From: Xanthostigma xanthostigma
Taxonomy: Eukaryota; Arthropoda; Insecta; Raphidioptera; Raphidiidae
Length of the DNA: 64,000 nt
Direction: 5' to 3'
NCBI GenBank assembly: GCA_963575645.1
Contig: OY754470.1
Span: 2,914,001-2,978,000 of the forward strand
Shown: positions 5,278-62,875 of the stretch, in pieces
How positions within the stretch are numbered: position 1 is the first letter of the stretch
Layout of the letters: the number at the start of each line of letters is the position of its first letter
Made by a program: the position numbers and the translations under genes
The notes under the pieces: model-generated
What the model saw: the letters and a program-made list of their open reading frames with translations, nothing else
Told to the model about the DNA's origin: nothing
Database searches by the model: none

Positions 5278-5511
5278 ATCTGTTATAATTCAAATCTTTG
5301 ATTATTTTTTCAATTTTTAATAATTTAAAAACTTGAAGCGAATTTTTTCAAATACGAATTAGAAATTAATTATTTTTATATTTTTTAGGTCAGTTCTGAC
5401 GAAGATCCAAATCCGGACCGAAACGTCAATGTATTAATCATTATTTTTTGTTAATATATTTGTCTGAAAAATTGGTCGATAATTTTATTTATTGAAGAAT
5501 CTATTATAATT
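5278..5511 (-). mobile_element. short retroposon D1 with target duplication
   Basis: A 208-bp insertion (5291-5498) is flanked by ATCTGTTATAATT (5278-5290) and ATCTATTATAATT (5499-5511), a 13-bp direct repeat with one mismatch. The left end CAAATCTTTGATTA is the reverse complement of the family's 3' end (TAATCAAAGATTTG). The ribozyme-like stem-loop (5396-5427) points the other way, so the 5' part is inverted relative to the 3' tail. The right part, GTCTGAAAAATTGGTCGATA, is shared with D2, D5, D9 and D11. Confidence 0.7.
5396..5427 (+). ncRNA. hammerhead-like motif (D1)
   Basis: CTGACGA, an extra A, then GATCC-loop AAATCC-GGACC (one A-C mismatch), then GAAACGTC. Core bases match CUGANGA and GAAA, and the last triplet is GUC, the classic hammerhead cleavage triplet. 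Stem III would be the 4-base palindrome ACGU, too short to close alone, so a dimeric form is implied. Activity is inferred, not shown. Confidence 0.4.
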
Positions 5512-6054
5512 ATTTGTGATACGGATACAGAATCAATTGTGAACAAGTATCGGATTATCTGTGTAGAGTTTCGGAATCAGATTCGGAGTTTCTTAGTAAC
5601 TCATTACAAAAATTTACGTACTTTTGCCTCTTAACAAAATTTCTGTAAGCTATAAAGTCTCGCTGGTTGCATTCTATAGTTAGCGTGAATTTATGGCAGT
5701 AATTAGACGCTTCGTGAAATTTGTATTTGCTGCTAAATTATCTGAAGTTTTAATAAATAACAAAGAATAATAATATACACTGTATGTGTATATATATAAA
5801 ATATGTAAATACCATGGAATAAATGCTCTTCTACTAACATTTTCAGTGCAGCAATTTTATTTGAAGCATACGATCAGAAAACTAGAAACGAATATTATGC
5901 TTTTACGTAATTTTAAGTGCTTAAAATAACTTCGTAAATCTTAACTTCTAATATATATCATATGTAAATTTTGAACATGAACAATATTTTTAATATTATT
6001 GATGAGAGACTTTCTGCTTAAACAACCATTTGATCTCTAATATCAAACGTAATT
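5512..6054. other. anonymous AT-rich DNA
   Basis: No gene or assignable repeat is seen. A TA-rich run lies near 5780-5800. Confidence 0.5.
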
Positions 6055-6258
6055 AGATAAAATATAGCGATATCTGATAAAATTTGTTTAACGCTATTAG
6101 TTCAGAAGCAAACAAAAAAAAACTGTTTTAGTACCAAGTAGCGACATCTGTTAGAATTCGCCCAAAGCTATTCGTTCAGACGCCGGACTGCAAACGAAAT
6201 ACATTTTGCAGAATTATATCTATCGCACCCGGGTGAAACCGGGACGGACCGCTAGTCT
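6055..6258 (+). repeat. old repeat E2, 3' part
   Basis: It contains two diverged copies of a roughly 70-bp subunit (AGCGAYATCTG ... GCTATTAGTTCAGA), then TTTTGCAGAATTATATCTAT and the end CACCCGGGTGAAACCGGGAC followed by GGACCGCTAGT. The same order is found at 24180-24790 and, inverted, at 50770-51090. It is a degraded retroelement-like repeat of unknown class. Confidence 0.5.
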
Positions 6259-8393
6259 TACGATAATTCTCGGAGATGATAGACACAAACAAATTGATTA
6301 GTCACGAATTTTATAAACGACACCATCATATCTATGATAGTAGAGACATTATCATGTACTACAGAAGTTTGCAATATTACAGTGATATGACAGAATATCA
6401 CGTATTATTTAGGCACTGTTAAAACCTGAGCTTTAACCTCAAATAACAAAGCAACGTGACTTGCAACAACTACTAACTAACCAAACTGTATCTGTATATA
6501 CGAGGTGCAACAGAAAGTTACGATAAAAATTTTAGTTTTTAAAGAATAGTTTTTTTTTTAATAAATGTTTAATAAATAAACTAGTTTCGTAATTTCCGTG
6601 TTAGTTGAGATTTAAATGTACATATTACGCCAGGTTTCCGCTCAGGGTTCGTTCTGGTAGATTTTGGTATGGCAGCAATATTTGATGATATATCAAAATG
6701 GGGGCTCGTTCCACACTTTTTTAGGATTAGATAATAAAATGATTTTTTTGAAAGTTTTTTCTATAAGAAAAAAATTCCAAAAGTGTGTTTTTTTCACTGC
6801 AATATTAGAATAATTTCACTACGGTGATAGGTCATAACTAAACAACTTTATAGTTAAATAATAATTATTATTATTTATTCTCAATTTGTCTATATCGACT
6901 TAGGATAAGTCCGGAGAATACAATAATTACATATAATATATACAAGTAAAATCAATTAAATATTAGTTGTCAGACATACAACTAATAATAATATAAAATA
7001 ATAGATCGAAATACTAAAACATAAATAATAGAGTTAGAATGGCTGCCTGTAGTTCAATCACGCCCACTGGTTCTTTAGACTTGGTATCAATAACTGACAT
7101 ATACATCTCTTTCCATAGACGTACCTCTCTTTATTCAAGCGCGAAAGTGATGTGCGAACTAGGTCCAGCATCGACGTCTCGTTTGCAGTCCAGCATTAAG
7201 CTATATTCTTAAAATTTTTCAAAACTTAATCTACTCTAGAAACATTCCAGTAACTTTTGATTACACCTTATACACATTATAATATGGAGTTTTATGCGAG
7301 TGGTGTTGTCAAAAAAAGTCGGCATGAATGTTTGAAGAAGTTCTAAGTACTACGGTAGGTGTGCCGATGTAATTAGTGTGAGGGTAATTAACCAGCTACA
7401 GGGCCGCACTGCGAATATTTACCTATTTAAACCGAAGTTATCTTTAACATGGAACTGTAAAATTAAAATGATTTTAGAGGAAACTTAGCTGCGGAAAATT
7501 TAGTTCAAAACAAACATTGTTTGAAAAAATGTCAAGTATATTTTTAAGGGTCAGCTAAAAGAGAAACAATGAGTGCCGATAGTGCAAAAAAAAAATTAGT
7601 TACTAAGTTACTGAATTTTTATAAATTTAATAATAATGACAATTATAACATATTTGCACAGACAAAGAAAGGCAATTATGTAATTATACAGCTATGGATA
7701 CACATCATTACAGTCTTTTGACGTCATTTACGAAATTGTAGGGTTCTGAATCGTTCAAATTTCAGCACACTTTTAACATGCTTTTCCTGCTTAATAAGTT
7801 AGTTTAAGTATATATTTGAATATGTAATAACAGTTTTGTAATTTAATTTTCATTTTTTAAATAATTTTTTTCTTTAAATATTTCACATACACAATTTTCA
7901 TTTGTTTTTTCCCCCTAAAATTCTGTATCTATAAGAAACCATGAAAAATGCTTTTAAACTATTTAACGTTTTTCTGTTCGCTTATAATTGACTAGTATGC
8001 GTTACTTATAAATTAAAATGCAGGTTTTGCATAATTTTGATTGTTTTAAAATAATTAATTTCCGTTCGAATATTCAATTCCAATAAGTAATTTATTTTTA
8101 ATTCATAAACAAACAATTACTGATATTTTGTAATTTAAAACAAAGCTCTTTGTATTATTTTACTTTGAAAACAGACGTTTTTTGAAATCATTTTAAAAAT
8201 ATACATTTTTAAAGCTCATTATATATAGCGGCGTTAGTCTTCGAATTTTATCTACAGTAGAACACATTATTTGAACAATTAATAACCACACAAAATATTG
8301 TCATATTTAATTTTCGTATCAATACTCGCATGTTATTTTTTTAAGTCTATCGATATCCGAATAATACCAAAAAAGTTGCACTCGGCTCAAACT
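6259..8393. other. long anonymous AT-rich stretch
   Basis: No gene, tRNA or clear transposon is seen. ATT/TAA runs lie near 6865-6885. A segment of somewhat higher GC at 7040-7200 has no recognised features. Confidence 0.5.
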
Positions 8394-8394
8394 T

Positions 8395-8422
8395 TGATGA
8401 CCTCAGTTGTCGAGCATCTATA
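8395..8422 (-). repeat. dispersed palindromic motif G
   Basis: TGATGACCTCAGTTGTCGAG followed by CATCTATA matches the inverted form of the TAGACGCTCAACAGCTGAGG motif found complete at 25934-25968. Several copies occur in the window. Confidence 0.5.
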
Positions 8423-8473
8423 CTCCTCAATCTAATCTAATCAGGCTGCAGCCAGCTATAAACGTACACGTTT

Positions 8474-8710
8474 TCTTCATATCCGATCGGAATCACCCCT
8501 ACCTGCCGCACCTATTAAAGAAGTTTCACTTCTAAAATAGTGCTGCCCTGATACCCTCGAGAGATATGTAAACTTTCGGATTCCGCCCTATTCCGTGGTT
8601 TATTCTTTTCTGCTTTCCCTCATCGCTACTTGCATCACGCTTTTTTCATAGTCGATCGGAATCACTCCCGCCTACGTATACCGCGCGTAAGGAATGATTT
8701 TGAGGTTCTG
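8474..8710 (+). repeat. pair of diverged CGATCGGAATCAC repeats
   Basis: Two copies, 8474-8540 and 8641-8710, share TTTTCTTCATAtcCGATCGG or its variant and then AATCACYCC. They are separated by about 100 bp. The source element is not recognised. Confidence 0.4.
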
Positions 8711-14200: not shown

Positions 14201-14462
14201 AAACCTACAGCAACGTATATAGTGATCTAAAAGTAAGAAAATTTCAATATTTTCACTTTTATATGACTTGAAAACCTCGTATCATTTCAAATTAATTTTT
14301 GAAGTGAAACATTTTTAGGCGCGCTAGAGGGGATAAATTGGCCTGGTTCAGACGACAGTAAAAACGCTTCCCCTTCAACCGGCAGTTGAGAAGAAAAAGT
14401 GGGGAAACACTGTATAGTTTATTTTTAAATATATAATTAGTAACAGGGTTTTGTGTCTCTAA
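11210..14462. other. anonymous stretch with a GC-richer segment
   Basis: No convincing gene. 12180-12470 holds CCGGGTGTTTTTTTAAC and CACCCCCTCCC/AAGGGGTG blocks typical of degraded repeats. 12640-13330 is less AT-rich, with a CACACCCACAC tract near 12825-12843. Frames on both strands here (such as 12711-13053) have no family signature. A GGTTCGATTCC at 14050 matches a tRNA B box, but no A box lies at a workable distance. Confidence 0.4.
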
Positions 14463-14931
14463 AGGCCGCTGCACTCCAGGCTAGAAATGCTGCTAGAAAC
14501 GCTGCTAGGAGCTCTGCTAGCCGCTAGACTGGGAACGAAGCTGGAAATGACGTCACTGTGGGCTGGCCTGCTAGATTACAAGATAGGTTTTATAATTAGA
14601 ACAGGGGATATTTTCCCTGCTAGATTTGCTGCTAGGTATGAGCAAGAACCAATCAGGAAGCCGTATCTTGTCACGTGAGTACTTGAACAAACACCCACAA
14701 ACCAACACGGTGTCGCATTCTGTTCAGAGTCAGAGAACAGGCACGTTTTTCTCGGTGTTTATATTCGAACTGTCACTGCGCGCGCACCAGATCTATCCAC
14801 AAACCAAGCTTGAAAAATAGTCTCGTGTGAAGCGAGCACTTAACAGCAATCAAGAAAAACAGCGCTAGAAAACTAGTAGGCAAATCTAGCAAGGAATCTA
14901 GCAGCGTTTCTAGCCTCGTGTACAGCGGCCT
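14463..14931. mobile_element. family C MITE, PIF/Harbinger-like (C1)
   Basis: Terminal inverted repeats of about 35 bp: AGGCCGCTGCACTCCAGGCT on the left and, reverse complemented, AGGCCGCTGTACACGAGGCT on the right, both continuing AGAAAYGCTGCTAG. The flanks are TAA (left) and TTA (right). TTA or TAA duplications at C2 and C5 suggest the PIF/Harbinger group. There is no transposase. Internal TGACGTCA, CCAAT and TCACGTG sites are shared with the other full copies. Confidence 0.65.
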
Positions 14932-15449
14932 TTAGAGTGATTCAAGATTTAGGGAGATTTCGATTTGTTGTTAAAGGGAGAATTTTGGAGAAGTTAACCT
15001 AGTGAAAACTAGAGGATTTCGGCCAGTCGCAAAAACTCACCTCCAATGTAAACGTGACTAACGGACGCGGTAAGAGAAGCCAGTAAATCTAGTAAGAGAA
15101 CCGCAAAACGTACTGGATTTAAATTTCGATTTCTTTTTCATTTGCCAATCCTTTCTACCTTTACAAACTCTGGCTTCGTTTTTCTGAATGGAGTTTTGAT
15201 GTAAATGCAAAATGAAACTTCACATTATTTCAAATCAGAATACTTTGCATTTTTTGAATTTTCATTGATGCATTTTTTTTGTTTAGGTACATTTCAGTAA
15301 ATAATCAAACAGATTTCGAATATATATATCTTTTAACATTTTTGAACATTTTTTAAATGTGAGTAAAAATATACTATTTCCTGGTGTTTGCTAGTTCAGA
15401 AATAGAAATAATTCAATTTCTCAAAATATGTTAAGAAGGCTATTTATTT
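14932..15449. other. anonymous AT-rich DNA
   Basis: No gene or assignable element is seen. Confidence 0.45.
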
Positions 15450-15723
15450 ATTCTAATTTTTAAATAAATTTAATTGTCGACCAATTTTTTTCAGACTATA
15501 GGTATATTGACAAAATAAAATTATAAATCAATATTACAAAAGATGACGCGATCCGGATTTGGATCTTCTTCAGATATAATCTAAAAAATATAAAAATTAA
15601 TTAGTTTATATGTACCTATTTTATAGTAGGATAATTAATTATCAAAAATTATGAAAAATTATTAACAAATTTTTTTTTTATTCAGACGTTAATCAAAGAT
15701 TCTAATTTTTAAAAGGTGATTGG
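15450..15723 (+). mobile_element. short retroposon D2 with 15-bp target duplication
   Basis: A 244-bp insertion (15465-15708) is flanked by exact copies of ATTCTAATTTTTAAA (15450-15464 and 15709-15723). The right end reads TTCAGACGTTAATCAAAG, the family 3' terminus, on the plus strand. The hammerhead-like block (15542-15573) and the GTCGACCAATTTTT block are on the minus strand, so the 5' portion is inverted relative to the tail. A long variable target duplication and 5' inversion are typical of target-primed reverse transcription. Confidence 0.75.
15542..15573 (-). ncRNA. decayed hammerhead-like motif (D2)
   Basis: On the minus strand: CTGAAGA, extra A, then a perfect 5-bp stem GATCC-AAATCC-GGATC, followed by GCGTC where GAAAC is expected. 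Stem II is the best preserved of its subfamily, but the second core strand is lost, so it should be inactive. Confidence 0.4.
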
Positions 15724-15920
15724 TAATACTAAAAGAAGTAAAAAACATAATTAACCCATTAAACCGCTTCTCAACTGTTGTTTTTTAATTATTTTAAATT
15801 TAACTTGGTTTAAAAACATTTACGCGTAATAAATACAATCATCTATCACTAGGGTGAAGTTTGCACATCTTTGAATTCTTTTAGCATCGACATTCACTCT
15901 TCAAAAAACATGGATCAAAC
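15724..15920. other. anonymous AT-rich DNA
   Basis: Nothing assignable is seen. Confidence 0.4.
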
Positions 15921-17090: not shown

Positions 17091-17118
17091 TGTAGACGCT
17101 CGACAACTGCGGTAATTG
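17091..17118 (+). repeat. motif G, partial
   Basis: TGTAGACGCTCGACAACTGC followed by GGTAAT. This is the left half of the dispersed palindromic motif. Confidence 0.45.
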
Positions 17119-17167
17119 ACGGTCATTGAAGTGTATTACGAATTGTGACTGTTATTTCCATACATTT

Positions 17168-17402: not shown

Positions 17403-17880
17403 GTATATGGTTATTTCTTATTCTTTTGATTGTGTGGTTATATCTGTGACGAGTTTCAATCAACGTGAAGTTGGTCATAAAAGCAATTATTTATTGCTGG
17501 TTCCTAGAATTGTGCGATAAACTTAGTGAACTAACACGAATGTGTCACAATACAAGAGAGTTTCACCGTTCCTACCTTGTCAATTGTATAACGTATAACA
17601 AGATTATCGGACATGTTTTCTCTACACAACTTTGACGTAGATCCCTTCTTCTTGTATTATGTTCTGATGTGGAAGTTTGTTGTGGCCAACTTGTAGCACG
17701 CTTATGCCTACAAGAACACGTTACCATTCCGAAGGATAAGGATGGGTGGTGATTATTGAAGATAATTTTAAAGAAATCAATTGAAGTGTAGTAACCCAAA
17801 GAAAGATGATCGGATATTTAAGATCAATACAATTTACTACTCTTCAAATAGCCGGAACCACTAAATATGAAAATATACAT
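17403..17880. other. anonymous DNA
   Basis: No gene seen. The minus-strand frame at 17572-17799 has no family signature. Confidence 0.4.
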
Positions 17881-17945
17881 TTTTCGAAACGTCGGCCATA
17901 AGCGAAACATCGGTAGAGCTTCTTTTAAAATTGTTCCTCAACCAA
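17881..17945 (+). repeat. diverged D4-type fragment
   Basis: TTTTCGAAACGTCGGCCATA and AGCGAAACATCGGTAGAGCT match, with substitutions, the block CGAAACGTTGGCCACTAGCG followed by TAACATTGGTAAAGCT at 18178-18215. It is an older copy lying just left of the D4 insertion. Confidence 0.45.
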
Positions 17946-17966
17946 ACTTTCCCCAAAAAGATAATG

Positions 17967-18259
17967 TCATAATATGTTTTCAGCATAAAGTAGTGTTGAT
18001 CCAATAGAATGTTACGATGGAGGAAGGTTTTGGTTGAGGACCATAATTAAGCTTTACCAATGTTATTTTCATCTTCAGGGTGTCAAGCTGGTCATAATAA
18101 TAATGATCATGTATATTGTTAGAACAATTTACCACCCATTGACCAGCTTGAAGCCCTGAAGATGAAAATAAATTTTTCGAAACGTTGGCCACTAGCGTAA
18201 CATTGGTAAAGCTTATTTATGATCCTCAACCAAAACCTTCCTTCATCATAATATGTTTT
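17967..18259 (-). mobile_element. fold-back retroposon D4 with 14-bp target duplication
   Basis: A 265-bp insertion (17981-18245) lies between exact copies of TCATAATATGTTTT (17967-17980 and 18246-18259). It holds a near-perfect inverted repeat: GGAAGGTTTTGGTTGAGG on the left faces CCTCAACCAAAACCTTCC on the right. Both arms carry CCCTGAAGATGAAAATA, but the left arm lacks about 27 bases including the GAAAC strand. The unpaired left end (CAGCATAAAGTAGTGTTGAT) is the presumed 3' tail on the minus strand. Confidence 0.75.
18156..18186 (+). ncRNA. hammerhead-like motif (D4)
   Basis: CTGAAGA, extra T, GAAAA-loop-TTTTC stem, GAAACGTT. Stem I can form between GCC before the core and GGC after it. 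The base after the terminal U is U, which is permitted for cleavage. Confidence 0.35.
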
Positions 18260-20182
18260 AATAATATAAAACACCCATTGTTGATGTTACAATGCAATAT
18301 TAGAAAAGTTTTATAATCGAGACAGTGTTGATATAATTCGGTACTATAGTCAATCTTGCACTGAGGTTTTAACTGTTGTGTGTCTATTTCTTTTTAGGTG
18401 AACTATTGTTTATTTTGTTAGATACAACGTTTTCAAAATAATTTTTGTTTCCACAACCCTTGGGTAAAGATATCCTCCGTTTCACTCCGCCGTTGGTACC
18501 TAGGCATTGTCAGATCGGCATGATGGATGACGATGAAACACTGAAACATCCAATCGTCCTTCGCCGCACTTCGCCGCGATACTGATAGGAGGCAGTATAT
18601 GTGAATAGATTAGGTATTATGAATTGATTTCTACCAACAATTCTCGGTCGGTCGGCAACATATTATAGAATATATTTTCTGTTACGTTACTGACGCTCCT
18701 TTATCGGCCTTACATACTACGGAAAACACTTGAAGAACAGAGTCTAAATGAAGAAAACATTAATAATAAAGTTGTTAATGGACCTATATCGATTACATTC
18801 ACACGCATACATCAGCTGATTTACAAGGTCGTTACATAAAAAGTCAAATTTCAGCACGACTCCACAAACCAAATAATAGTAAATTAGATTAATGATGCTA
18901 TTCTCTATGGTTCTTAAATGCTGAAATAATAAAATCGTCAATTCAAATGCTGGAACCTAAGAAGTTTTGCTTCTAAAGCGCGAGAGTCTTATGCATACTT
19001 TTTTTTTAGTAGCTGCACCTCAATTAAGATCTTAAAAAACTTCAAACTAGTTTTGTATAGACCTAACTACAGGCTAGCTATACGCGGGGTGATTAACCAT
19101 AGATCTAACTACAGGCCTAGCTGTGATTTCAACGACGTGAAATTTTGTGTTAACGATAATTTTTCAATGGAAGCACAATAAGCGGATTTTTTATCTTTTT
19201 TATGACAAATATGTACTTTAAATTTGTATTAGGGTGAACCAAATTTTATTAATTAAACAGTGATACAAAATCACTAGCCCGTGTACGAGTGTCGAAAATT
19301 GTAAAAATAAATTTAGAAACGAAAATCCGAGCCTGTCTTCTCGCAGTTTATTCTCTGAAAAGAATTCACTTCAAACTGTACTCATTCTAGATATTCTAAA
19401 AGAGCTGGAATACGCTTAGACGTCTATCATAACATGTTATCTTATTTGACTGAGCGTTAAAGGGACGAAAACCCCCACTAAAAAAATGGTCTATTTGTAT
19501 TATGAAAATTGTAATGTTCTTTCTTAATAAATACTTTAATTTAATATTCAACTTGAAATTATTATTTTTTATTTGACGTCACGTAGAACATTAATGATTT
19601 TTAATCTAAACTGATAAACATGTGAAGTTGAATAAAAGCTTGTAAACTAAAGCAAATAAAGCGACCTTGTCGTTTATTTTACGCAAGAAGAGAAAGGAAC
19701 CTTAAGCATGCCTGACTACGGACTATAGAGGAACATTAGAAGTTTATTTAAAGTTTTCATTCACTTTATAGAACTTAGAATATAGGCAGCATAATATGTA
19801 ATAATCAAATTATTTCAAAGTCAGTTCAAAGTTAGTCGAATAATATCTTAAACTACACATTGCGATTTTAAATCAAGTATATCCAGTAAATAAACTTAAA
19901 ATAATGATTATTTAACTTCTTTACAAACACACATTTTTACTTAAACACGTTGCGAACTTTACTGCATCAGTTGAAAATATTATTCAATAATTAAATCTAC
20001 TCTTGTCTACCTCAAGAACCATACTGGAAAGTTTTTTTTTTATTTCTTTAATTCAAGACAATAACATTATGAAAAAAACTTTTAACTCTCAAGTTTTAAG
20101 TTAAGCAAATAAGAATAAATGAGCATCAAGTCTTGTCGCCTCACTGAACAGTAAAAAAAAAGAACTGCGTGGATATAAAAGC
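18260..20182. other. long anonymous AT-rich stretch
   Basis: No gene seen. TAGAYCTAACTACAGGCYTAGCT is duplicated at about 19058 and 19101, a short local direct repeat. Nothing else is assignable. Confidence 0.45.
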
Positions 20183-36271: not shown

Positions 36272-36510
36272 AACGTTGAATATTAAAATTAAATAAAATT
36301 ATCAACCATTTTTTCAGACTGTATAAATTGGCAAAAAATTATAAAATTATAATTCAATATCTCAATAAATGACGTTTTATTGAAATATTGAATTATAATT
36401 GTATAATTTTTTGGTAATGTTTACCTACAGTCTGAAAAAATTGGTTGATAATTTTATTTATTTGAAGATTTCTATTCAGACGTTAATCTAAGATTTGAAC
36501 GTTGAATATT
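36272..36510 (+). mobile_element. fold-back retroposon D5 with 13-bp target duplication
   Basis: A 213-bp insertion (36285-36497) is flanked by exact AACGTTGAATATT (36272-36284 and 36498-36510). Its first about 170 bases are an inverted repeat centred near 36371 (AATAAATGACGTTTTATT). The outer arms carry ATTATCAACCATTTTTTCAG and its inverse. The last part, TTCAGACGTTAATCTAAG, is the family 3' terminus. The hammerhead-like core is absent here, so this copy comprises 3' sequence plus its inverted duplicate. Confidence 0.75.
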
Positions 36511-37756: not shown

Positions 37757-37945
37757 ATTTTAAATTAGAAATTCTAAAACAAAAACTATTCCAAAATGAT
37801 TTATTAATATTAGCGCTTTCGACAGTCATGTCTTCTTCAGATATTATTTTCTGTCATTATAATGCAATGACTGAATGTCGAAAGCGCTAATAAATTTATA
37901 AATATTTTAATAAATTATTTTGGAATAGAATTTCTAATTTAAAAT
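37757..37945 (-). mobile_element. fold-back D6
   Basis: Inverted repeat with outer arms ATTTTAAATTAGAAATTCTA and TAGAATTTCTAATTTAAAAT and inner arms TTAGCGCTTTCGACA and TGTCGAAAGCGCTAA. Arms are imperfect, with deletions. A weak 8-bp direct repeat ATAATTAT (37703 and 37943) may be a target duplication. It carries a hammerhead-like motif on the minus strand. Confidence 0.6.
37811..37840 (-). ncRNA. hammerhead-like motif (D6)
   Basis: CTGAAGA, extra A, perfect stem GACA-TGAC-TGTC, GAAAGCGCTA. Stem III is the palindrome AGCGCU and the cleavage triplet would be CUA. Stem I pairs AATAATAT upstream with ATATTAAT downstream (7 of 8). This is the most complete fold outside D12. Confidence 0.45.
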
Positions 37946-38075: not shown

Positions 38076-38106
38076 GACGTTTCGGCAATCTTTATGCCAT
38101 CTTCGG
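38076..38106 (-). ncRNA. hammerhead-like motif (D7)
   Basis: CCGAAGA (U to C at the second core base), extra T, perfect stem GGCA-loop TAAAGAT-TGCC, GAAACGTC with a GUC triplet. The surrounding fragment (38030-38240) has no visible target duplication. Confidence 0.35.
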
Positions 38107-41442: not shown

Positions 41443-41575
41443 ATCACAAAAACCAAGAAGGTCCTGAAGAAGACAAGAAATACTGCCGAAACGTAGACCA
41501 ATAAATAATGTTCTAGTGAATAAAAATTGTTTTATTATTTTAGCCTTGTTTCCCGTATAATTTTATCACAAACCA
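41443..41575 (+). mobile_element. short retroposon D8 nested in C3
   Basis: A 109-bp insertion (41456-41564) sits between ATCACAAAAACCA and ATCACAAACCA, an 11-13 bp duplication of C-family sequence. It starts AGAAGGTCCTGAAGAAGACA and ends in A/T-rich DNA (TTTCCCGTATAATTTT). The hammerhead-like motif is near its 5' edge. Confidence 0.7.
41464..41495 (+). ncRNA. hammerhead-like motif (D8)
   Basis: CTGAAGA, extra A, stem GACA..TGCC with one mismatch, GAAACGTA (triplet GUA). GGTC just before and GACC just after form a 4-bp stem I. Confidence 0.4.
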
Positions 41576-42085: not shown

Positions 42086-42260
42086 TTTAAATCTTTGATT
42101 AACGTCTGATTAGAACTCTTCAATAAATAAAATTATCGACCAATTTTTCAAACAATATATTAACAAAAAATATAATTAATACATTAACGTTTCGATCCGG
42201 ATTTGGTCTTCTTCAGAACGGATCTAAAAATATAAAAATATAATTAATATTTAGTTTCTA
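42086..42260 (-). mobile_element. retroposon D9
   Basis: Read on the minus strand it ends CAGACGTTAATCAAAGATTT, the family 3' terminus, at about 42090. The body (ATTGGTCGATAATTTT, AATATAAAAAT) matches D1 and D11, with 5' and 3' parts in the same orientation, so this copy is not inverted. No clean target duplication was found. Confidence 0.6.
42186..42216 (-). ncRNA. hammerhead-like motif (D9)
   Basis: CTGAAGA, extra A, GACC-AAATCC-GGATC (one base lost from the 5' strand), GAAACGTT. Stem I CGTT/AATG gives four pairs with one G-U. Confidence 0.35.
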
Positions 42261-42843: not shown

Positions 42844-42859
42844 TATTAAATAATTCTAT

Positions 42860-43180: not shown

Positions 43181-43187
43181 TGTGGCC

Positions 43188-43218
43188 AACATTTCGAAAA
43201 ATATATTTTCATCTTCAG
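43188..43218 (-). ncRNA. hammerhead-like motif (D10)
   Basis: CTGAAGA, extra T, GAAAA..TTTTC stem, GAAATGTT. Same subfamily as D4 (GCCCTGAAGATGAAAATA, TTGGCCAC). Only a fragment of the element remains. Confidence 0.3.
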
Positions 43219-45395: not shown

Positions 45396-45582
45396 AATTC
45401 TAATGAAGTCTTCAATAAATAAAAGTATCGACCAATTTTTCAGACAAATATATTAACAAAAAATATAAAAATTAATACATTTACGTTTCGGTCCGGATTT
45501 GAATCTTCTTCAGAACTGATCTAAAAAATATAAAAATTAATTAATAATTAATTTCTAATTGCTTTTTGAATTCTAATGAAGT
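45396..45582 (-). mobile_element. short retroposon D11 with 14-bp target duplication
   Basis: A 159-bp insertion (45410-45568) lies between exact copies of AATTCTAATGAAGT (45396-45409 and 45569-45582). On the minus strand: AGAAATTAATTATT, TATATTTTTTAGATCAG, hammerhead-like motif, GTCTGAAAAATTGGTCGATA, TTTATTTATTGAAG. It is not folded back, and the CAGACGTTAATC tail is missing. Confidence 0.75.
45482..45513 (-). ncRNA. hammerhead-like motif (D11)
   Basis: CTGAAGA, extra A, GATTC-AAATCC-GGACC (one mismatch, one G-U), GAAACGTA. Confidence 0.35.
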
Positions 45583-51090: not shown

Positions 51091-53399
51091 ACAACGTTAC
51101 GAATTCAAAGTGGACGAAGCCACCAGCAACAGCTAGTTTATTTAAAAACGCTTATTAAATGTGACAATGTGGACTTGGCTTTGGCATATAACCTTGATTT
51201 TGTTATTTCTTAATTAGTGCGATATAGGAATATTTTCGATATTGAAGACACAAAATAATAGGCTGTCCTACACACAAGGTGGCTTAATTATCTGTATTGA
51301 AAATAAAGTAAATGAGGAAAGTAACGCGCAGAAGTAAGATGAGACTCCTTTAAAAAAGACTTTTTTACACTCTTTTTCAGAATGGCTGTTCAATTAATAC
51401 AAGTACGGCTTCACAATTACCAATTTAGCATAGCAAATACAACAGTGGCACAGATAATCGTATTAAAAACAATCAACGAATTTATAAAGTCGACTAACTA
51501 TTCAACATCACGCGAAACTTTAGACGAAAAACACGTAACTGCTATGCATTATTCATGACATAATCTACTTTTAATAAAGTTTATTGCGCCTGTTTTGGGA
51601 AACAAAGTACTGAACATTATACGAAATATATTGCAGGACAAGAGGTGCATTAATTTCAAAAAGAAAATTATTATAATTCGAAAATCGAAAAAAAAACAAA
51701 AATATTATCTATCCCGATCAATACATTTACTGCATTTTAAATGTGACATACTAAAAACGGTGCATTTGTGGTGGAAGACGCGGTATAGTTATGGTGAAAG
51801 TGGCGGTTATAATTTGTCTGTATATCCGTGATTCACTTGAAAACTACTAAATAGATTTCAATTTTGTTTCCAGAGTTGTATAGATAATTATCCTGGAAAT
51901 GCTTTCGACTATACAACATTACAGTAAATCATGGGGGAACAGGCAACACCGGGCTTAAAACTACAAACTACATAATAACGAATAAACTTAGGTGCTCTTA
52001 GCTTAGCGTTGTAACTTCATTTTGACAATGGCTAAGTGGGAATTACACATACTCGTGGGCAGCAATGGGCATAACAGCTAGTTAAATTTTGGAACAGAAA
52101 TATTTCACTGTAAGAAAACATCTGCTTATTTTTGTTTATTGAATTTAGTAAATGTTGTAAAATCATGTAAAAACTGAGAAATAGAAATACCTATATAAGT
52201 AAAAAATATTTTTGAAAAAAATGAATTAAACATTCCTTGATTAAAAACTTAAACAACTTAACGGCTATTTTCCATACATTTGTCTGACTTGTTTAAAATT
52301 TAGTACTTATTAAAAGACTCTTTCGAGTTTTAAAGATGCATAAAAAAGTTTGGTTAAACAAAATGAATAAACCGACGGAACTATAATACAGGATGAGTTT
52401 TAATAATATTTTGTATTTTGTGAAATTTGTACTTTCAAGAGATTTTATTTTTATTAATTATAATTAATAAATTTTTATTAATTATAATGAATAATTATTC
52501 AGCCTGTGTTAGTTTTTCTAGTTTCAAACTATTGACGTGTGAAATAAACAAGAATAATTGATTTGTAGAATGTATTTCAAAGATAATTTATTAAATTCAA
52601 AAAAAAAAAATTAAACTCGCTAGGCTGTTGTTTTACCATGATATCCAGAAATAATAATTCACACACTTGATTCCTACTCTACTAGTTCATCATAGTTCTG
52701 AACTTGATTTTTTTTTTCAATGAAATGTGAGATATAACTAAAACTTCTCTGGGCAGACATTAATTATGAAAATCCAAGCTTATTATTATCATCTTACCTT
52801 AGCAGTTGGCAGAACTGCATATTATACACACATACATAAATAACGCGCGAGTTCAGAGTTAAGATCTTGTTAAAAACAGTATGCATTAAATAAATAATTG
52901 AATTACAAACTAATGAAAATTCATTGCGAAGTAAGAAGTAATAAAAGTTATGTTGATTAAAGTATCGAGTAACACGAAACAAAATTATATTCATTTTATG
53001 TACAGCGCAGTACTTTTCTTTATTACACCAACACCCGTGTATAATAAATATTAATTTAAATTAAAAGTTGAAAAAAAAAATGGAAAAGAATATTATCTTC
53101 TGCTATACCAGCTGCAAATATGTATTGCCTATTACTGACCAACGAAAAAATGTTATGAAATAATTCTAGTTAAATAACCTGCGTCGTTACGATATCGTTG
53201 TTTATATATGCCCAGAGGTCGTACCGTGCCGTATGCGAGAGTGTATTTTAATAAACGTTTGAGTATACTGCTGTATAAACGCACCGCTAGCGGACGCTTG
53301 TTTTGTAAAGTATCTGTGTATGTGCGTAGCACGTTGTTGCGGTTTGTGCATGTATAGTATAGAATGTATTGTGTATTTAAAAAAATGGTTTTTCATTAT
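51091..53399. other. long anonymous AT-rich stretch
   Basis: No gene seen. A 20-bp ATTTTTATTAATTATAATKA unit is duplicated near 52450-52490. Confidence 0.45.
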
Positions 53400-53545
53400 T
53401 TGTTCTTATAGCGGCCATAGAAATACAGTCTCTGTGACAATTTCAATTCTCTACCTATTACGGTTTATACAGCCCGTTGACACACAAACGGATGGACAGA
53501 CGGACGGACAACGGAGGCTTAGTCCGTTGGGCACGGAACCCTAAA
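53400..53545 (-). repeat. old repeat K, inverted copy
   Basis: Reads on the minus strand GGGTTCCGTGCCCAACGGAC, then TTGTCCGTCCGTCTGTCCAT, then TATAAACCG..TGTATTTCTATGGCC. This is a good match to the common form of the repeat. Confidence 0.55.
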
Positions 53546-53604
53546 ATCAATGCCGTACAAACACGGCTCTTATTCGATAAGAAAGTTCTCTGCAGCATAA
53601 TATT

Positions 53605-53662
53605 ATGACTATTTTTGATGGGCAATCTACAAATCCGGGCGAAGCCGGACCGGGCCGCTAGT
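53605..53662 (+). repeat. old repeat E terminus
   Basis: GGGCAATCTACAAATCCGGG then CGAAGCCGGACCGGGCCGCT then AGT. Confidence 0.5.
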
Positions 53663-53876
53663 ATAGAATAACAGGAGAGCAGAATTAAATCCTGTGACGT
53701 TTTTTAGTGACTCGTCGTGCTGTTAACAGCGACAAATCTAGACAACTTTTGTTTGCACAACTCTAATGGAAGAGTAAATTGATTTGATTGAACGCAGTCG
53801 ACGACGTAATGAACCATAACAGTAAGCACCGCATTCAACATGTCTTCAGTTCAGGATTGTAGCAGGCGTGGTCAAC

Positions 53877-54058
53877 CGTTGTTTGTCAAAATTAAAACAG
53901 GAGCTATTTTTCGTGCTTGTTTTGAACAAGAACCAATCCGGAAACAGTATCTGGTCACGTGAGCGACTAGGACAAATGCCCACAGACAAACATGGCGTGT
54001 ATTCTCTTCAGAACACGCATCGTGTGAAGCGAACACATAAAAGCCATTACGAAACCCA
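53877..54058 (+). repeat. family C internal fragment (C4)
   Basis: AGGAGCTATTTTTCGTGCTT, GAACAAGAACCAATCCGGAA, CTGGTCACGTGAGCGACTAG and CATCGTGTGAAGCGAACACA match the diverged C3 type. Both ends are missing, and the right side is cut by repeat E. Confidence 0.55.
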
Positions 54059-54061
54059 ACT

Positions 54062-54305
54062 GTACCCTAGCGGCCCGGTTCGGCTGCACCCGAATTTGTG
54101 GATTGCCACCGTTTTTTTCGTCGACTTACGTTGCAAAATTGGTTTCCACGAAAAACGCTTTTATTTTAACGCGATAATAACCTATGCTCATCCTGAAGGG
54201 CCGTTCTAAATATTGGTAAAAAAAAATTTTTGAAATCGAATGATTAGTTTCGGAGATTACCTTTTACATCCAAACTTACAAACTTTATTTCTTTATAATA
54301 TTAGT
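54062..54305 (-). repeat. old repeat E
   Basis: CTAGCGGCCCGGTTCGGCTG, GGATTGCCACCG, CATCCTGAAGGGCCG, TTTCGGAGATTACCTTTTAC, TTTATAATATTAGTAT. The most complete E copy here. Confidence 0.55.
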
Positions 54306-54432
54306 ATAACAAAAAAAAAGGTCCTCACATTCTATTTCCGCATTTTACTATTTTTCTAAAATTTTCTAAAATGCTTCGCGGGCCGGATAACATTGCGCTG
54401 CGGGCCGGATTCGGCCCGCGGGCCGCCATTTG
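54306..54432 (-). mobile_element. one end of a hAT-like (Charlie-type) element
   Basis: Read from the right edge: CAGACCTGGGCAAATGGCGG then CCCGCGGGCCGAATCCGGCC. The CAGxxxTGGGCAAA start followed by a GCGGGCC block is typical of many hAT non-autonomous ends. No partner end was found. Confidence 0.5.
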
Positions 54433-55323
54433 CCCAGGTCTGGTATAGATTATAAAGAAAATTAACAGTTGAGCAGCAGCCGGATATCTCTATGCTATAA
54501 ATCTCACAGTATGAGTTCGAATTTTCTGACAAGAAAAAAAACTACACACTACCTGAGTACAGAGATGAAATATATTCATCTGTGAAATAATCTGTTATCG
54601 ACGCCTGGTCGAGAGGCAGACACTTTCCAGTTTCCACATATTTATAAAAAATTACAGTAATTTTACGTACATATGAATTCGATTTCCAAACAGTTTATCA
54701 ACTTAAGTGCCGACATATTTTATGAACGTGGCTGAATTTAAATTTGTCGGCAGAGTTTATCTTTCTTTCTTTACGTCTTTCTCTTTTTGAAATGTATATG
54801 TAAGACAACTTATGAGCCTTTATACCTAATATTTAAAACAAATCTTCAGGAATAACTGACTGACGAATTTTCAGTACTGTTTTGCCTCGATACTAGAGAT
54901 GGGCATATTTTGTTTTATATTCCAAAAACCTCGGTACCGCTTTCGCCATAACGGCCTGATACCGGAATCGAACAATGGTTACATCCAATCGATTCAATTC
55001 CATCCATTTTTAGCTTTTGAAATTTTTAACTGGAACAGTTCCAACAACACTTGGAAACTAATTGCTTTAAAATTTTGCAATATTTATCTTTGGCCTTTCA
55101 AATTTAAAATCAAAACTAAGTAAAAAGAGCTATATAAGGAATTAGTGGAGCATTATTAAAATATGAACAAAATTACGACATACGCAACTGCCTCTATTCA
55201 AAAATGGAAACAAGAAAGGAGAAAAAGACAGCATCAGGAAACAAAATCTAAAATCCGACGTTCATTTCTATTTTTTTAAATTTCATTCGTGTTTTTTTTA
55301 TATAAATCACAATCACCATACAC
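54433..55323. other. anonymous DNA
   Basis: No gene is supported. Confidence 0.4.
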
Positions 55324-57626: not shown

Positions 57627-58311
57627 AAAAAAAAATTGGTTGTCTGTAAAGTCGGTTTACGGACGATAGTTTTACGTGATAACGTATTCCATAATACATA
57701 ACCTAAACCTCCCAAAATTTGGTTTCAATCCGCTTATCCTTGGTGTCGGAATGATAAGAAATGTCAAAAGTGACGTTTGCAACTTACAAAGTATTATGTT
57801 CTAATAATAATTAGTTATTCCAATACTTAACTTAGAAGGCGTTGCATTTCACAATATACTAATGTCAAAAAATTGAATTAAACATTAGAAATGCAGCCGT
57901 TTTCATGTTAAGACAAGACATACGTTTGCTTCTAATTTCCATGTACGGCAAACAAAGACAACCGACCGCGTCGCGCCATGCATTACACAACATTGCATTT
58001 ATACAGCTATTTTTCTATATAAATTTGTATAAAATATTTTTCTATATAAATTTGTATAAAAAAACTGTTTAGGCAAATTCTGTTATACGAAATCTATGTA
58101 AAATGTTCTCCTCTTTCGTTTAAGACTGGTTTCAAACCGATCTGATTTAAATTGAGCGAGAAATTAGCAAAAAGCACGCACAGGGTCAGGCGGAACGTTA
58201 CGCGTTATGCGTTATGCGTTACGCGTTACACTTTTTCGTACATGCAGCCGGTGTTTTATCAATTTATAATATTGGTGATTCATCAATTTATAAGACGTTA
58301 TCACGTCAAAA
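57627..58311 (-). mobile_element. Helentron-like element B4, nested in T2
   Basis: Same layout as B3 (hairpin end at left, GTTATCACGTCAAAA at right). Shares with B1 the duplicated AAATTTGTATAAAATATTT unit, so B1 and B4 form one sublineage. It interrupts T2 in an A-run, consistent with T-T insertion. Confidence 0.75.
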
Positions 58312-58353: not shown

Positions 58354-59356
58354 TATGGTTTAGCTACTTACAGAACACTAGTGTCCTCTTACTTTGGGAA
58401 GCAATTTGTTTATACATGGAGCTAGTAGTCCTTGTAATCTCCACTCTCCATGACCTATCATTAAAATTTACTTATAGAATTAAAGATAAAACCTGCACAG
58501 CGTTACATTAAACGCAGCTTATAAATAAATATATATCTATAGCAGCCAAAATGTTGCCAAAAACTTAAGCCACTTTCCTTGTTACCACCACCGCTACAAT
58601 ACATCTCGTTCCTTGCCACAGAACTATATTGTAAACCTGTCTTCAATTTGAATAAATTTAAAACTGTTTCCATTAATTTTCATCATTGATGGCTACAGAG
58701 CAGAAGTTCCCGTTTGATTTTTTCAGTTCGATTTATTTTTAATTTCAAAAGACAAAAACAAACATTTAATTAAAAAAAACTGACTATCACAATGAAAAAA
58801 ATAACCAACGATTTCAAGCAAGTAAATATAAACTACTTTTGTTGTAAGTCGATTATAAAATTAATATTTAAAAATGTTAAGCTTATTTTTTTCTTCGGAG
58901 CACATTACGAAATTCCAAATTTAACATATGTTTTCTAGGTTTTCATTTATTTTTGCATCTTTAAAAATTTATATAAATTTTTAAAAAAGACGTTACTCTC
59001 ACAAAAAAACGGTTTTAACAAGGAAATCGTAAAAAATTGTGGGAGTTCTTTTCAACTAAAGTTTTTATATTCTTTATCTTTAGCACAGTTATGTTATGTT
59101 CATTTACTGTTAACCAAATGATTAAATAATCAAATGAAACCATTCCTTAAACTTTTGTTCAAACTAATGTCGACAAAAATCAAATAATTTCACATTATTA
59201 AAATTATATTTCTCTTATGTACTTTTATTGAAAATTCTAAACGCATGTACAACTTCTAAACCCAGAGAAGATACAGACGTTTGCTTGTTTTCGTTAAAAT
59301 CAGCGTGTCTTTTACTAAAAGCTTGGTAAAGAAATCGTTCTGAGAGATCTCGATTT
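58354..59356. other. anonymous AT-rich DNA
   Basis: No gene seen. 59230-59310 holds a diverged inverted piece of the 46948 tandem unit. Confidence 0.4.
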
Positions 59357-59489
59357 GAGCTCTGTTCCAATCTCTCTGCAAACGATAATATTATCGTCAC
59401 AGTCATGCGTAGTAGCTAGAACGAATCTGTTTGTATCGGGTTTTGAACTACTACACAAGACTGTGATGATAATATTACCCTTCACAGAG
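59357..59489. repeat. palindromic MITE F, copy F4
   Basis: GCTCTGTTCCAATCTCTCTG then CAAACGATAATATTATCGTC on the left and GACTGTGATGATAATATTAC then CCTTCACAGAG on the right. Arms remain complementary although their sequence differs from F2 (GATAATATTATC for GGTAACAGAACC). Confidence 0.55.
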
Positions 59490-60265
59490 TAGTAAACATT
59501 TTTCTTTATATATTTGGCACACACTACCGTAAAATCATATTCAAAGTTTTATTGTCATCTTAGTAAAGAAAGAACTTCTCAGTTCTTCAGTGTCTGGCAA
59601 GCTTGACTTAAAATTTGCACAGTATGTTACAACTCTAATATGTATAAGTATTGACTCACGGTTTAAATAAATGGCTCAAATAAATGGTATGTTAATGTAA
59701 AAATATGTTTGTACCTATATTCACACATAGTCTTTATGGGGCGATATTGGGTCAGACTTGCCATGTGTATAACTGCTCGAATCAAATCACGTCAGAACAG
59801 ATATGTCATTTCCCATAAAATTTCGATTTTAATCTGCTTAATCTGTATCACGTAACTGTATTCTTAATTAAGTTGGATTATATCAGAACGTGATATTTAT
59901 TTTAGAGGGACAATCCTATTAAATTGGAACGTCTAATATACAGTGAAGTCGTTGATCAAAGCAACTTAAACGCTCTATGCAACTGTGTATAATAATAATT
60001 CGACCCCTGACGGACCGTGAACCAGCACTAAACCATATAAAATGACAACGTTCTTCTCTGAAGTTTTCATATTTAAGTGTCGCCTCTTCTCTTCAGTCAC
60101 ACGCAGTTAAAGTTCGGATGCAAACAAAGAACCAAATTAGTACGATACAGTACTGGTCAAATAAGAAAGAAAACAACTATTTAGCCATAATAATTTTATT
60201 GTTGGATGCACATTTTTGAAGAAATTCTACCAACAAAAACACTAAGGCTGGAAACAGTGCTCGAC
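59490..60265. other. anonymous DNA
   Basis: No gene seen. Confidence 0.4.
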
Positions 60266-60266
60266 C

Positions 60267-60304
60267 GACGGTCAGCGCGTACCGTACGCGCTGATTGTCG
60301 GTTA
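60267..60304. repeat. GC-rich hairpin
   Basis: CCGACGGTCAGCGCGTAC faces GTACGCGCTGATTGTCGG, about 18 bp with two mismatches. It is probably the core of a MITE starting near AAGGCTGGAAACAGTGCTCG (60243). Confidence 0.5.
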
Positions 60305-60963
60305 TGAAAATGCAGTGTTCAAAACTGATGGTAAAAACTAAGTCGCTTGTGTAACGTATGCGAACACAAATGAATCATTTTGCAGCGAAATCTATGATAG
60401 GTGCATTGTGCATACAATTTATATAAACAATTACGAAAGAAAAGACGAAGAAGATATCATTTTGTTTTATTTGTTATTTACATTTTATCTTGTTTTATTT
60501 GTTATTTATATATTATTGACATGTCCTACATCTTATACACGATCTACTGGATTAATAAAATTATTATTATATTATTATTATATTATTGTCATGTTCACCC
60601 AATACTTGTAGAACGGCTAATATTGAAGGTGAATTCTGTACACTGTTTTCAAAATTGTGAGAAGATGAGGAAAATTTGTAGGTTAAATTTTGTTTGTGTT
60701 GTACAAAAGTACGGACGCGCGTACTCGTTCAACGTCGTACCAAGTTCAATCACCGTCATATTTATTAGTACTAATTGCCGTATAAAAGCAATGTAAAGAT
60801 ATATTTTGTATAATACCTAGGTTTTTAGAACTTTTGTCTGCTCGTCTGTGGGTTTTAAATTTCTATGAAATATAAAAAAAAAAATCGTTTTGTATAAAAT
60901 ATATCATCGACACTGGTGGATCTGTAATTAAAATTAGATAACAAATGTTCATTACTCTTTGCA

Positions 60964-61008
60964 GTAGACAGCATGGACATAGTATATTCCTATGTCCATG
61001 GTAGACAG
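60964..61008. repeat. 29-bp perfect hairpin between 8-bp direct repeats
   Basis: CATGGACATAG-TATATTC-CTATGTCCATG (60972-61000) lies exactly between two GTAGACAG octamers (60964-60971 and 61001-61008). Confidence 0.55.
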
Positions 61009-61240
61009 TCATTCGCCATTTTGTATCTAGGTATCATCTCTAACATAGATTTTATGAGAGGTCATTTTTCATATACTCATGAATTATGAAAATTATCTAC
61101 AGAAGAAGTTTCATTTATCTGAATTTACTTCAATACGCCAATTTATCATCTCGTATCAGAAAACAGTCGCGAGGAGAAAATAAAAAATAGACTACGTCCA
61201 TATAGGAAGGAATAAACACGCGCATAAAGTCTCAGATAAT

Positions 61241-61434
61241 TTTTTTTTTTGACGTGATAACGTCTTATAAATTGATGAAACACCAATCTTATAAATTGAT
61301 AAAACACCGGCTGCATGTACGAAAAAGTGTCACGTTCCGAAATCTGTCCCGTTCCGAAATCTGTACCGTTCCAAAATCTGTCCCGTTCCGAAATGTGTCA
61401 CGTTCCGCCTGACTTAAATATGATATTCGAGCGG
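61241..61434 (+). mobile_element. Helentron-like 5' half B5
   Basis: TTTTTTGACGTGATAACGTC at the start, then the B2-type interior up to GATATTCGAGCGG (61422-61434). There the right subterminal repeat should follow, but satellite DNA starts instead. It holds a private minisatellite of four units GTTCCGAAATCTGTCCC (61335-61405). Confidence 0.65.
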
Positions 61435-62303
61435 CAGATATCATCAACCGATTGAGATGAAAATTTGTATACACGTTTAGTTTGAATGATAATGCATGGT
61501 TAGCTGTATGACGTCACTCTAAATCCAAAATGGCAGACTTCTAAAGATGGCGGAAATGCCTTCGGTAATTTTGAAGCAGATATCATCAACCGATTGAGAT
61601 GAAAATTTGTATACAGGTTTAGTTTGAATGACAATGCATGGTTAGCTGTGTGACGTCACTCTAAATCCAATATGGCGAACTTCTAAAGATGGCGGACCAA
61701 TTTTATTATGCTTTCCTACAATATGGATATCAAATGAAAGGGCTTGCTGAGAATAACTCGAAAAATAAAGTGACGTCACTCTAAATCCAATATGGCGGAC
61801 TTCTAAAGATGGCGGACTAATTTTATTATGCTTTCCTACAATATGGGTATCAAATGAAAGGGCTTGCTGAGAATAACTCGAAAAATAAAGTGACGTCACT
61901 CTAAATCCAATATGGCGGACTTCTAAAGATGGCGGACTAATTTTATTATGCTTTCCTATAATATGGGTATCAAATGAAAGGGCTTGCTGAGAATAACTCG
62001 AAAAATAAAGTGACGACACTCTAAATCCAATATGGCGGACTTCTAAAGATGGCGGACTAATTTTATTATGCTTTCCTACAATATGGGTATCAAATGAAAG
62101 GGCTTGCTGAGAATAACTCGAAAAATAAAGTGACGTCACTCTAAATCCAATATGGCGGACTTCTAAAGATGGCGGGCTAATTTTATTATGCTTTCCTACA
62201 ATATGGGTATCAAATGAAAGGGCTTGCTGAGAATAACTCGAAAAATAAAATGACTTTAGTTTAAATCCAATATGGCGGACTTCTAAAGATGGCGGACTAA
62301 GTT
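61435..62303. repeat. satellite-like array, 142-bp and 120-bp units
   Basis: Two starts of a 142-bp unit (61435, 61577; CAGATATCATCAACCGATTG) lead into five complete 120-bp units starting at 61651, 61771, 61891, 62011 and 62131, plus a partial at 62251. Each begins TGACGTCACTCTAAATCCAA (with changes in the fourth and last) and carries AATATGGCGGAC and AAGATGGCGG. Units are nearly identical, so the array is young or homogenised. A 165-codon minus-strand frame exists only because 120 is a multiple of 3. Confidence 0.85.
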
Positions 62304-62332
62304 TTTGACGTCAAGAGGGGTTTAAAAAAAAA

Positions 62333-62538
62333 AGTTTTTGACGTGATAACGTCTTATAAATTGATGAAACACCAGCTGCACGCACGAAAAAGTGTAACGT
62401 TCCGTAACATTCCGCCTGACCCTGTGCGTGCAAGAGAGAGCGCAATAATGTATTAGGAAATATGATATTCGAGCGGAATACGTTATCACGTAAAACTATC
62501 GTCCGTAAACCGACTTTACAGACAACCAATTTTTTTTC
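62333..62538 (+). mobile_element. short Helentron-like element B6
   Basis: AGTTTTTGACGTGATAACGT at the left. GTCCGTAAA-CCGAC-TTTACAGAC hairpin and AACCAATTTTTTTT at the right. About 205 bp, closely similar to B2. A third 5'-end-like fragment (GTTTTTGACGTCAAG) lies at 62301. Confidence 0.7.
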
Positions 62539-62701
62539 TAAATCAAAAGAGACACAGATGTGCACGTGTTTTCTTTGTAATATACAAAAGCACATGAAAA
62601 AATGTTTCGGTAAAGTTGATATTCGGTATTTACACTTAAATAAAGACTATCAAATAAAAAATAGAGAATAGTTACTTCTTACCACAACAAGTTTATTAGT
62701 G

Positions 62702-62736
62702 GATGTACATTTCGAGAGCTATGCTCTCATCTTCAG
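62702..62736 (-). ncRNA. hammerhead-like motif, left arm of D12
   Basis: Mirror of the motif at 62744-62778. Confidence 0.4.
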
Positions 62737-62743
62737 TGTATTG

Positions 62744-62778
62744 CTGAAGATGAGAGCATAGCTCTCGAAATGTACATC
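62744..62778 (+). ncRNA. hammerhead-like motif, right arm of D12
   Basis: CTGAAGA, extra T, perfect 6-bp stem GAGAGC-ATA-GCTCTC, GAAATGTACATC. Stem III is the 8-base palindrome AUGUACAU and the triplet is AUC. TATTG before and CACTA after can form a short stem I with one mismatch. Confidence 0.45.
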
Positions 62779-62875
62779 CACTAATAAACTTGTTGTGGTA
62801 AGAAGTAACTATTCTCTATTTTTTATTAGATTCAAACCACAGTGCTCCTAATATTTTTGTTATAAAGACTATCAA

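Follow-up and report, generated by a model that had tools for sequence, protein, structure and literature searches.

Hammerhead-type cores dispersed in a stretch of the Xanthostigma xanthostigma genome and their probable relation to Penelope-like elements

The closest described systems to the elements considered here are the minimal type I hammerheads of Penelope-like elements (PLEs), which lack helix III and are reported both within the pseudo-long terminal repeats (pLTRs) of these elements and scattered in non-coding DNA (PMC7761336, PMC6155905). Thousands of minimal type I copies occur across metazoan genomes, mostly dispersed and possibly cleaving as dimers (PMC7761336, PMC6155905, PMC7229834). 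Dimer self-cleavage of the PLE motif has been reported (PMC7761336, PMC6466107), the double hammerhead requiring both the palindrome and a tandem arrangement (PMC6466107), and the role of the PLE hammerhead has been called "still a mystery" (PMC7761336). We describe here ten loci with a hammerhead-type core in 64,000 nt of the genome of Xanthostigma xanthostigma (contig OY754470.1, forward-strand positions 2,914,001-2,978,000, assembly GCA_963575645.1), a stretch referred to in its entirety as the window, together with their relatives in the 623-Mb genome (28 contigs). Like the published PLE hammerheads (Cervera and de la Pena 2014; Lunse, Weinberg and Breaker 2017), they have no stem III, a short palindrome, thousands of dispersed copies and, in one family of the window, a pLTR location; dimer cleavage is reported for the published ones, and the stem subfamilies are particular to the Xanthostigma genome. 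The ten loci are very probably old and probably inactive PLE insertions, or short non-coding elements moved by PLEs, that carry the minimal type I hammerhead of a pLTR. Minimal dispersed PLE hammerheads are already published, and the window elements are a further case of this known kind.

Two other systems invite comparison. The Penelope elements of Adineta vaga (PMC3846280) have head-to-head pLTRs, solo pLTRs and target-site duplications, all of which are found here as well; their duplications measure 8-10 bp against 13-16 bp in the window, and the word hammerhead is absent from that paper. The metazoan non-LTR retrozymes (PMC7229834) have in common with the window elements a type I hammerhead and small non-coding units, some retrozymes also having a weak helix III, whereas their hammerheads are canonical, with loop contacts, and lie in small tandem repeats giving RNAs of ~170-400 nt. 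The window holds minimal cores and no tandem arrangement of them, and thus no canonical type I hammerhead in small tandem repeats as expected of a retrozyme. The first-pass annotation of this DNA had proposed small retrozyme-like elements. The hammerhead core in that proposal is supported, as is retroposition for at least five elements, but a reading as new retrozyme-like elements is not supported: the motif is published, no tandem occurs in the window, and the locus beginning at position 62744 (loci are named by first position) is a PLE pLTR.

Direct reading of the ten loci shows C(T/C)GANGA separated by a single extra base from stem II, then GAAA and a short palindrome that leads into NUH, where H is any base but G; at 15542 the GAAA strand is gone. 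The extra base sits between A9 and stem II, stem I is weak, and stem III is replaced by nothing more than the palindrome (ACGU, AUGU or AUGUACAU, AGCGCU). With the covariation of stems I and II set out below, this is the minimal type I hammerhead core CUGANGA...GAAA...NUH. A descriptor that asks for C[TC]GANGA and, after one further base, a stem II of four or more perfect pairs and GAAA has 6 matches in the window, where 200 dinucleotide shuffles average 0.035 (maximum 1); if one stem II mismatch is tolerated, there are 8 matches and the shuffles average 0.195 (maximum 2). Both counts take in both strands of a palindrome at 62.7 kb, the eight matches being seven of the ten loci and the opposite strand of 62744. 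Without the extra base and without a mismatch, the descriptor finds nothing in the window. Three loci (15542, 41464 and 42186) are too decayed for it, and all three are recovered by the covariance model described next. Rfam places no member of a hammerhead family in the window, whether the cut is the gathering score or E<=5, a silence that is probably due to curated models expecting the third stem; its microRNA-family matches near 62.7 kb were set aside as the 62744 palindrome itself.

The covariance model, R1, was built from an alignment (A4) of 13 copies, all outside the window, after an earlier alignment (A3) had been discarded in which four copies with longer palindromes (L085, L095, L049, L153) were misaligned and which A4 omits. 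It recovers nine of the ten loci at E values from 1.3e-10 to 1.6e-4 and the tenth, 37811, at 0.043. Since the training copies include members of the same families as those of the window (L031, L051, L084, L090, L079, L087), this confirms family membership and is no fresh discovery of the motif. When R1 was applied to 8 chosen of 30 viral loci, all preselected for the core, chance scores reached 24.9 bits, and the nine window loci lie above this maximum, at 27.5-51.7 bits. The presence of the core with its one extra base at ten loci, first asserted from the letters alone, is thus upheld by direct reading, shuffles and R1.

The motif is abundant in the genome at large. The exact pattern CTGAAGATG-N(8-16)-CGAAACG, which fixes one stem II pair and leaves the others free, has 3,695 matches (1838 + 1857) in the 623 Mb, and the reversed control pattern has 0 + 1. 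At least four stem II pairs form in 94 of the first 100 matches listed, and pairing is complete over the four positions in 23 of 29 distinct strings, where shuffles give 5.7 on average and 13 at most. Matches to a pattern one base longer in viral contigs (31 in 30 loci) were rejected as chance, none of the 31 reaching four stem II pairs. Covariation was assessed on a second alignment (A2) of 18 hand-picked representatives (7 lie in the window and 11 in other parts of the genome, and some share a family), trimmed to three stem I pairs, the core, four stem II pairs, GAAA and N17. The descriptor had demanded stem II in 16 of the 18 (the exceptions being 41464 and 42186) and stem I in none. Of 54 stem I cells, 94.4% are paired (45.7% in shuffles), and the stem shows 31 two-sided changes against 9.7, neither value being matched by any of 500 shuffles; stems I and II jointly are 94.4% paired against 52.8%. 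Kinship among copies may inflate such shuffle comparisons, and slid controls, in which kinship is retained, are 21-41% paired. The covariation of stem II across subfamilies that the first-pass annotation had seen is therefore borne out by the listed genomic matches and the joint-stem test, and that of stem I is an addition to it.

The base at N17 is also constrained. Among the nine window loci with intact ends none has G, the base at 62744 being A or C according to whether the palindrome is read as AUGU or AUGUACAU. The listed places yielded 88 distinct genomic copies, 84 of them scorable, and in these N17 is T in 66, C in 16, A in 2 and G in 0, although two large families supply most of these copies, so that the 84 are not independent tests; U16.1 is missing in 4 of the 88, and stem I has at least three contiguous pairs in 62 of the 84. 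A further set of 46 distinct instances, from loci fetched in this genome and from the window, gives T24, A10, C8 and G0 in the 42 that are scorable. The expectation that N17 is always H has held in the scorable copies.

The link with PLEs rests first on one genomic locus, L069, in which an open frame of 804 amino acids with reverse transcriptase (RVT_1, E 3.1e-11) and GIY-YIG (E 1.2e-5) domains lies between two identical, directly repeated hammerheads whose core is the same as that at 62744. Window positions 62732-62868 are 97.8% identical to the 5' repeat of this element and 62732-62862 are 98.5% identical to its 3' repeat, while 62736-62649 form an inverted copy with 98.9% identity. The L069 frame overlaps its repeat, and its first 22 residues match window positions 62802-62867 (tblastn E 3.4e-6). 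Because of this repeat identity and the reverse transcriptase and GIY-YIG frame between the repeats, the GAGAGC family of 62744 is the pLTR of a PLE that has an open frame with both domains in this genome. A genomic search for GIY-YIG, in which 150 of 521 candidates were scored, gave 37 matches, and 26 of these are followed on the same strand by a hammerhead (27 if the doubtful L155 is counted). Of the 30 loci fetched, 22 are followed, at a distance of 294-867 nt, by a same-strand hammerhead that contains one extra base (a single hammerhead serves for both L048 and L050), and 8 have an antisense hammerhead upstream, that is, a head-to-head arrangement; the other seven matches have it in four cases (L153, L154, L158, L159), doubtfully in L155, where a GAAAA core lies 1.2 kb after a GIY-YIG remnant, and not in two. 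L153 and L159 represent a further PLE subfamily, with a CTGATGA-T-GACAAC stem and the palindrome ACAUGU downstream of GIY-YIG.

Marks of insertion point in the same direction. Flanking direct repeats were sought at 11 elements, each compared with 300 random placements, and they exceed the random placements at five: 45482 (14 bp, 0.007), 62744 (14 bp, 0.013), 15542 (15 bp, 0.017), the element at 36.3 kb (13 bp, 0.03) and 18156 (16 bp with a mismatch, 0.033), these values being uncorrected for 11 tests. Target-site duplications hence mark at least five elements, in agreement with the early description of the family as retroposons. Three insertions are inverted head to head (62640-62875, 17967-18261 and 36272-36510); in the second, the left arm has lost the 3' half of the motif and scores R1 E 0.12 at 18053.

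The extra base is T in 38, A in 7 and C in 1 of the 46 distinct instances. Where it is T, A9-T-G10.1 spells ATG; where it is A, as in the window GATCC family and in L039, there is no such ATG. In the PLE Poseidon PAc of Anolis carolinensis, the open reading frame begins at stem II, with C3 and G8 preceding the ATG and the cut 26 bp on (PMC11167929), and at 18156, which likewise has an ATG in its core, the predicted cut falls 25 nt from the A of that ATG. This comparison suggests that the extra base derives from a start codon overlapping the core. In L069, by contrast with Poseidon PAc, the core ATG opens a frame that stops after three codons, the 804-residue frame beginning 58 nt after C3, and the overlap of ATG and core is therefore not universal.

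Most of the window copies look defective. The two opposed cores at 62.7 kb are predicted to fold as one almost perfect hairpin of 183 nt (-145.9 kcal/mol), which makes dimer self-cleavage unlikely for 62744. This hairpin, the lost GAAA of 15542, the damaged stem II of 5396, 45482, 42186 and 41464, and the C at position 4 of 38076 together make it unlikely, as judged from their sequences, that these seven copies cleave. The core is retained in 18156, 43188 and 37811, and the lowest-energy folds of 18156 and 43188 include hammerhead stems I and II.

An active element, of which the window copies would be relics, might be pictured as follows. Tandem repeats would be transcribed together, and pairing of the palindromes would join two copies into a double hammerhead that would cleave after NUH and free unit RNAs; the PLE enzyme would nick the DNA and copy the RNA into the nick, and frequent 5' truncation and template switching would leave solo and head-to-head repeats like those of the window.

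A number of observations weigh against reading all ten loci as insertions of PLEs, or of short elements moved by them, that carry a pLTR hammerhead. The anole PLE hammerhead reportedly fails to cleave unless its protein is present, and insertion in vitro reportedly does not require the hammerhead (PMC11167929); an extra core nucleotide is reported to weaken a viroid hammerhead (PMC11014351). None of seven folded monomer windows is clearly more stable than its shuffles, and 22 of the 84 scorable genomic copies have just 0-2 stem I pairs. The weakest of the ten loci, 37811 (17.8 bits), falls below several chance viral core matches and so rests mainly on its own pairing (four pairs in stem II, six by eye in stem I, and the palindrome AGCGCU). 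Eight of the 30 fetched GIY-YIG loci have no hammerhead within 1.5 kb downstream, nor has a wider 7-kb stretch round one of these eight, L076, and the proximity of the L155 core to GIY-YIG may be coincidental. Direct repeats are not significant at 38076 (0.10), 5396 (0.21), 37811 (0.35), 42186 (0.60), 43188 (0.71) and 41464 (0.75). The GAGAGC family is the only one of the window families for which a tie to PLE coding sequence was found. Pfam scans with stops read as X covered window positions 3001-7992, 14501-19492, 29001-45992 and 59001-63992 on both strands and 53000-55000 on the plus strand (about 30 kb of the window lie outside them), and in the stretches scanned there is no reverse transcriptase or GIY-YIG match at E<=1 (E<=5 in one scan) and no coding trace near the GATCC, GAAAA, GACA and GGCA copies. 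Sub-threshold matches in these stretches were LTN1 (E 8e-4), a hantavirus ITAM motif (0.044) and TRAP_alpha (2.1); that to LTN1, at 38013-38141, is below its cut-off and overlaps the 38076 core, perhaps reflecting an exonised element in a seed protein or else chance, and a protein search with the translated stretch returned nothing at E<=1.

The GATCC, GAAAA, GACA and GGCA families of the window may be non-autonomous mini-elements that depend on PLEs for their movement, or else solo repeats belonging to other PLEs. A sharper form of the former branch, to which we give somewhat less than an even chance, takes the non-coding families as separate short interspersed nuclear element (SINE)-like retrozymes with minimal hammerheads that parasitise PLE enzymes, GAGAGC alone being a true PLE repeat in the window. 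A comparison of three PLE proteins with 28 genomic loci, drawn from several families but not from GACA, gave no reverse transcriptase or GIY-YIG trace, and the copy number is large. The most retrozyme-like arrangement found, a tandem of three units of a further family, GATAC (L077, 1000-1900; spacing 216 and 220 bp, 97.6-100% alike), has a GATAC-type hammerhead core in each unit; apparently complete copies of this family are a few hundred bases long, and by eye its tail resembles that of window locus 38076. At L032 and L090, too, reading by eye shows what look like complete copies, a few hundred bp in length, with direct repeats of 12-13 bp. Such parasites might however be parted from their parent PLEs only in appearance, as these may have been missed with 150 of 521 GIY-YIG candidates scored, and solo pLTRs and partial tandems are usual in PLEs too (PMC3846280). 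Bolder still, and on balance unlikely, is the proposal that GAAAA, GATAC, GATCC and GGCA would together make up a class of non-coding, SINE-like elements that parasitise PLEs. Each element would be a few hundred bases in size and distinguished by a minimal hammerhead acting as a dimer; copies would number in the thousands, sometimes in tandems of ~218 bp, and the class would form a missing link between PLEs and retrozymes.

That the elements are instead canonical animal retrozymes, spreading via circular RNAs from type I hammerheads, is improbable: their small size, the L077 tandem and the type I arrangement would fit, but Rfam finds no hammerhead in the window, stem III is missing, the window has no tandem, and the 62744 family is a PLE repeat. 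It is even harder to credit that the motif is no more than a hammerhead look-alike, a stem-loop belonging to some unrelated foldback or DNA transposon. Three loci do lie within inverted repeats (18009-18254; 37756-37946, which encloses the 37811 core; 62649-62831), but stems I and II covary round a nearly invariant hammerhead core in the 18 representatives, N17 is never G in scorable copies, and hammerheads are placed downstream of GIY-YIG genes.

The features are collected in the table; those that go beyond the list of the first-pass annotation are the minus-strand core 62706-62736, the decayed copy 17854-17899 and the coreless relative 36272-36510.

Table. Hammerhead-type cores, the insertions that hold them, and the PLE of locus L069. 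Positions are those of the window, except for L069, where they are those of the locus.
Feature	Positions	Strand	R1 score	N17
Minimal hammerhead core, GATCC family, one stem II mismatch, ends GUC	5396..5427	+	E 1.3e-5	C
GATCC-family insertion including 13-bp flanking direct repeats, 1 mismatch (5278-5290 / 5499-5511)	5278..5511	+		
GATCC-family core without GAAA strand	15542..15573	-	E 1.6e-4	
Insertion round 15542 core, perfect 15-bp target-site duplication	15450..15713	-		
Decayed GAAAA-family copy, CTGA core lost	17854..17899	+	E 0.042	
GAAAA-family head-to-head insertion, 16-bp direct repeat with 1 mismatch	17967..18261	+		
Minimal hammerhead core, GAAAA family, ends GUU	18156..18186	+	E 1.3e-10	T
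GATCC-family relative, head-to-head, hammerhead core deleted, 13-bp direct repeats	36272..36510	.		
Hammerhead-type core, GACA family, palindrome AGCGCU, ends CUA	37811..37840	-	E 0.043, 17.8 bits	A
Minimal hammerhead core, GGCA family, C for U at position 4, ends GUC	38076..38106	-	E 3e-7	C
Decayed minimal hammerhead core, stem I GGUC/GACC, stem II mismatched, ends GUA	41464..41495	+	E 3.3e-8	A
Minimal hammerhead core, GATCC family, stem II apparently one base short, ends GUU	42186..42216	-	E 1.8e-7	T
Minimal hammerhead core, GAAAA family, ends GUU	43188..43218	-	E 6.5e-9	T
GATCC-family insertion, perfect 14-bp target-site duplication (45396-45409 / 45569-45582)	45396..45582	-		
Minimal hammerhead core, GATCC family, one stem II mismatch, ends GUA	45482..45513	-	E 9.7e-7	A
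Head-to-head PLE pLTR insertion, 14-bp target-site duplications (62640-62653 / 62862-62875)	62640..62875	.		
Head-to-head copy of 62744 core	62706..62736 (R1 match 62704-62743)	-	E 7.9e-5	
Minimal hammerhead core, GAGAGC family, identical to core of the genome's PLE repeats	62744..62774	+	E 1.1e-7	A or C
L069 element, hammerheads 2719 bp apart	hammerhead 4951, open reading frame 4893-2479, hammerhead 2232	all -		

The window also contains other repeats. One separate family, whose copies measure about 360-480 bp and have inverted ends (GCCGCTGCACACGAGGCTAGAAACGCTGCTAG), occurs at 14457-14932, 29499-29964 and 63184-63547, with diverged copies at 41080-41456 and 53886-54059; one of the diverged copies adjoins the 41464 core, and the repeat was rejected as part of the hammerhead family because, with its inverted ends, it looks like a separate element. 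A dispersed family with 85-91% identity is found at 15921-16294, 49015-49345 and 57967-58311, with pieces near 26.5, 61.2 and 62.3 kb, and a 144-bp repeat has copies 96-99% identical at 38657-38800, 21285-21428 and 30647-30790. Tandem repeats of ~120 bp at 61642-62310 hold an open frame of 222 amino acids on the minus strand.

In the elements described here, a genuine ribozyme motif has been recognised from raw sequence where Rfam reports none. The genome of X. xanthostigma, in which the stem subfamilies number more than ten and thousands of relics accompany PLEs with paired hammerheads, is a natural data set for this kind of motif and could serve to probe the purpose of the PLE hammerhead.

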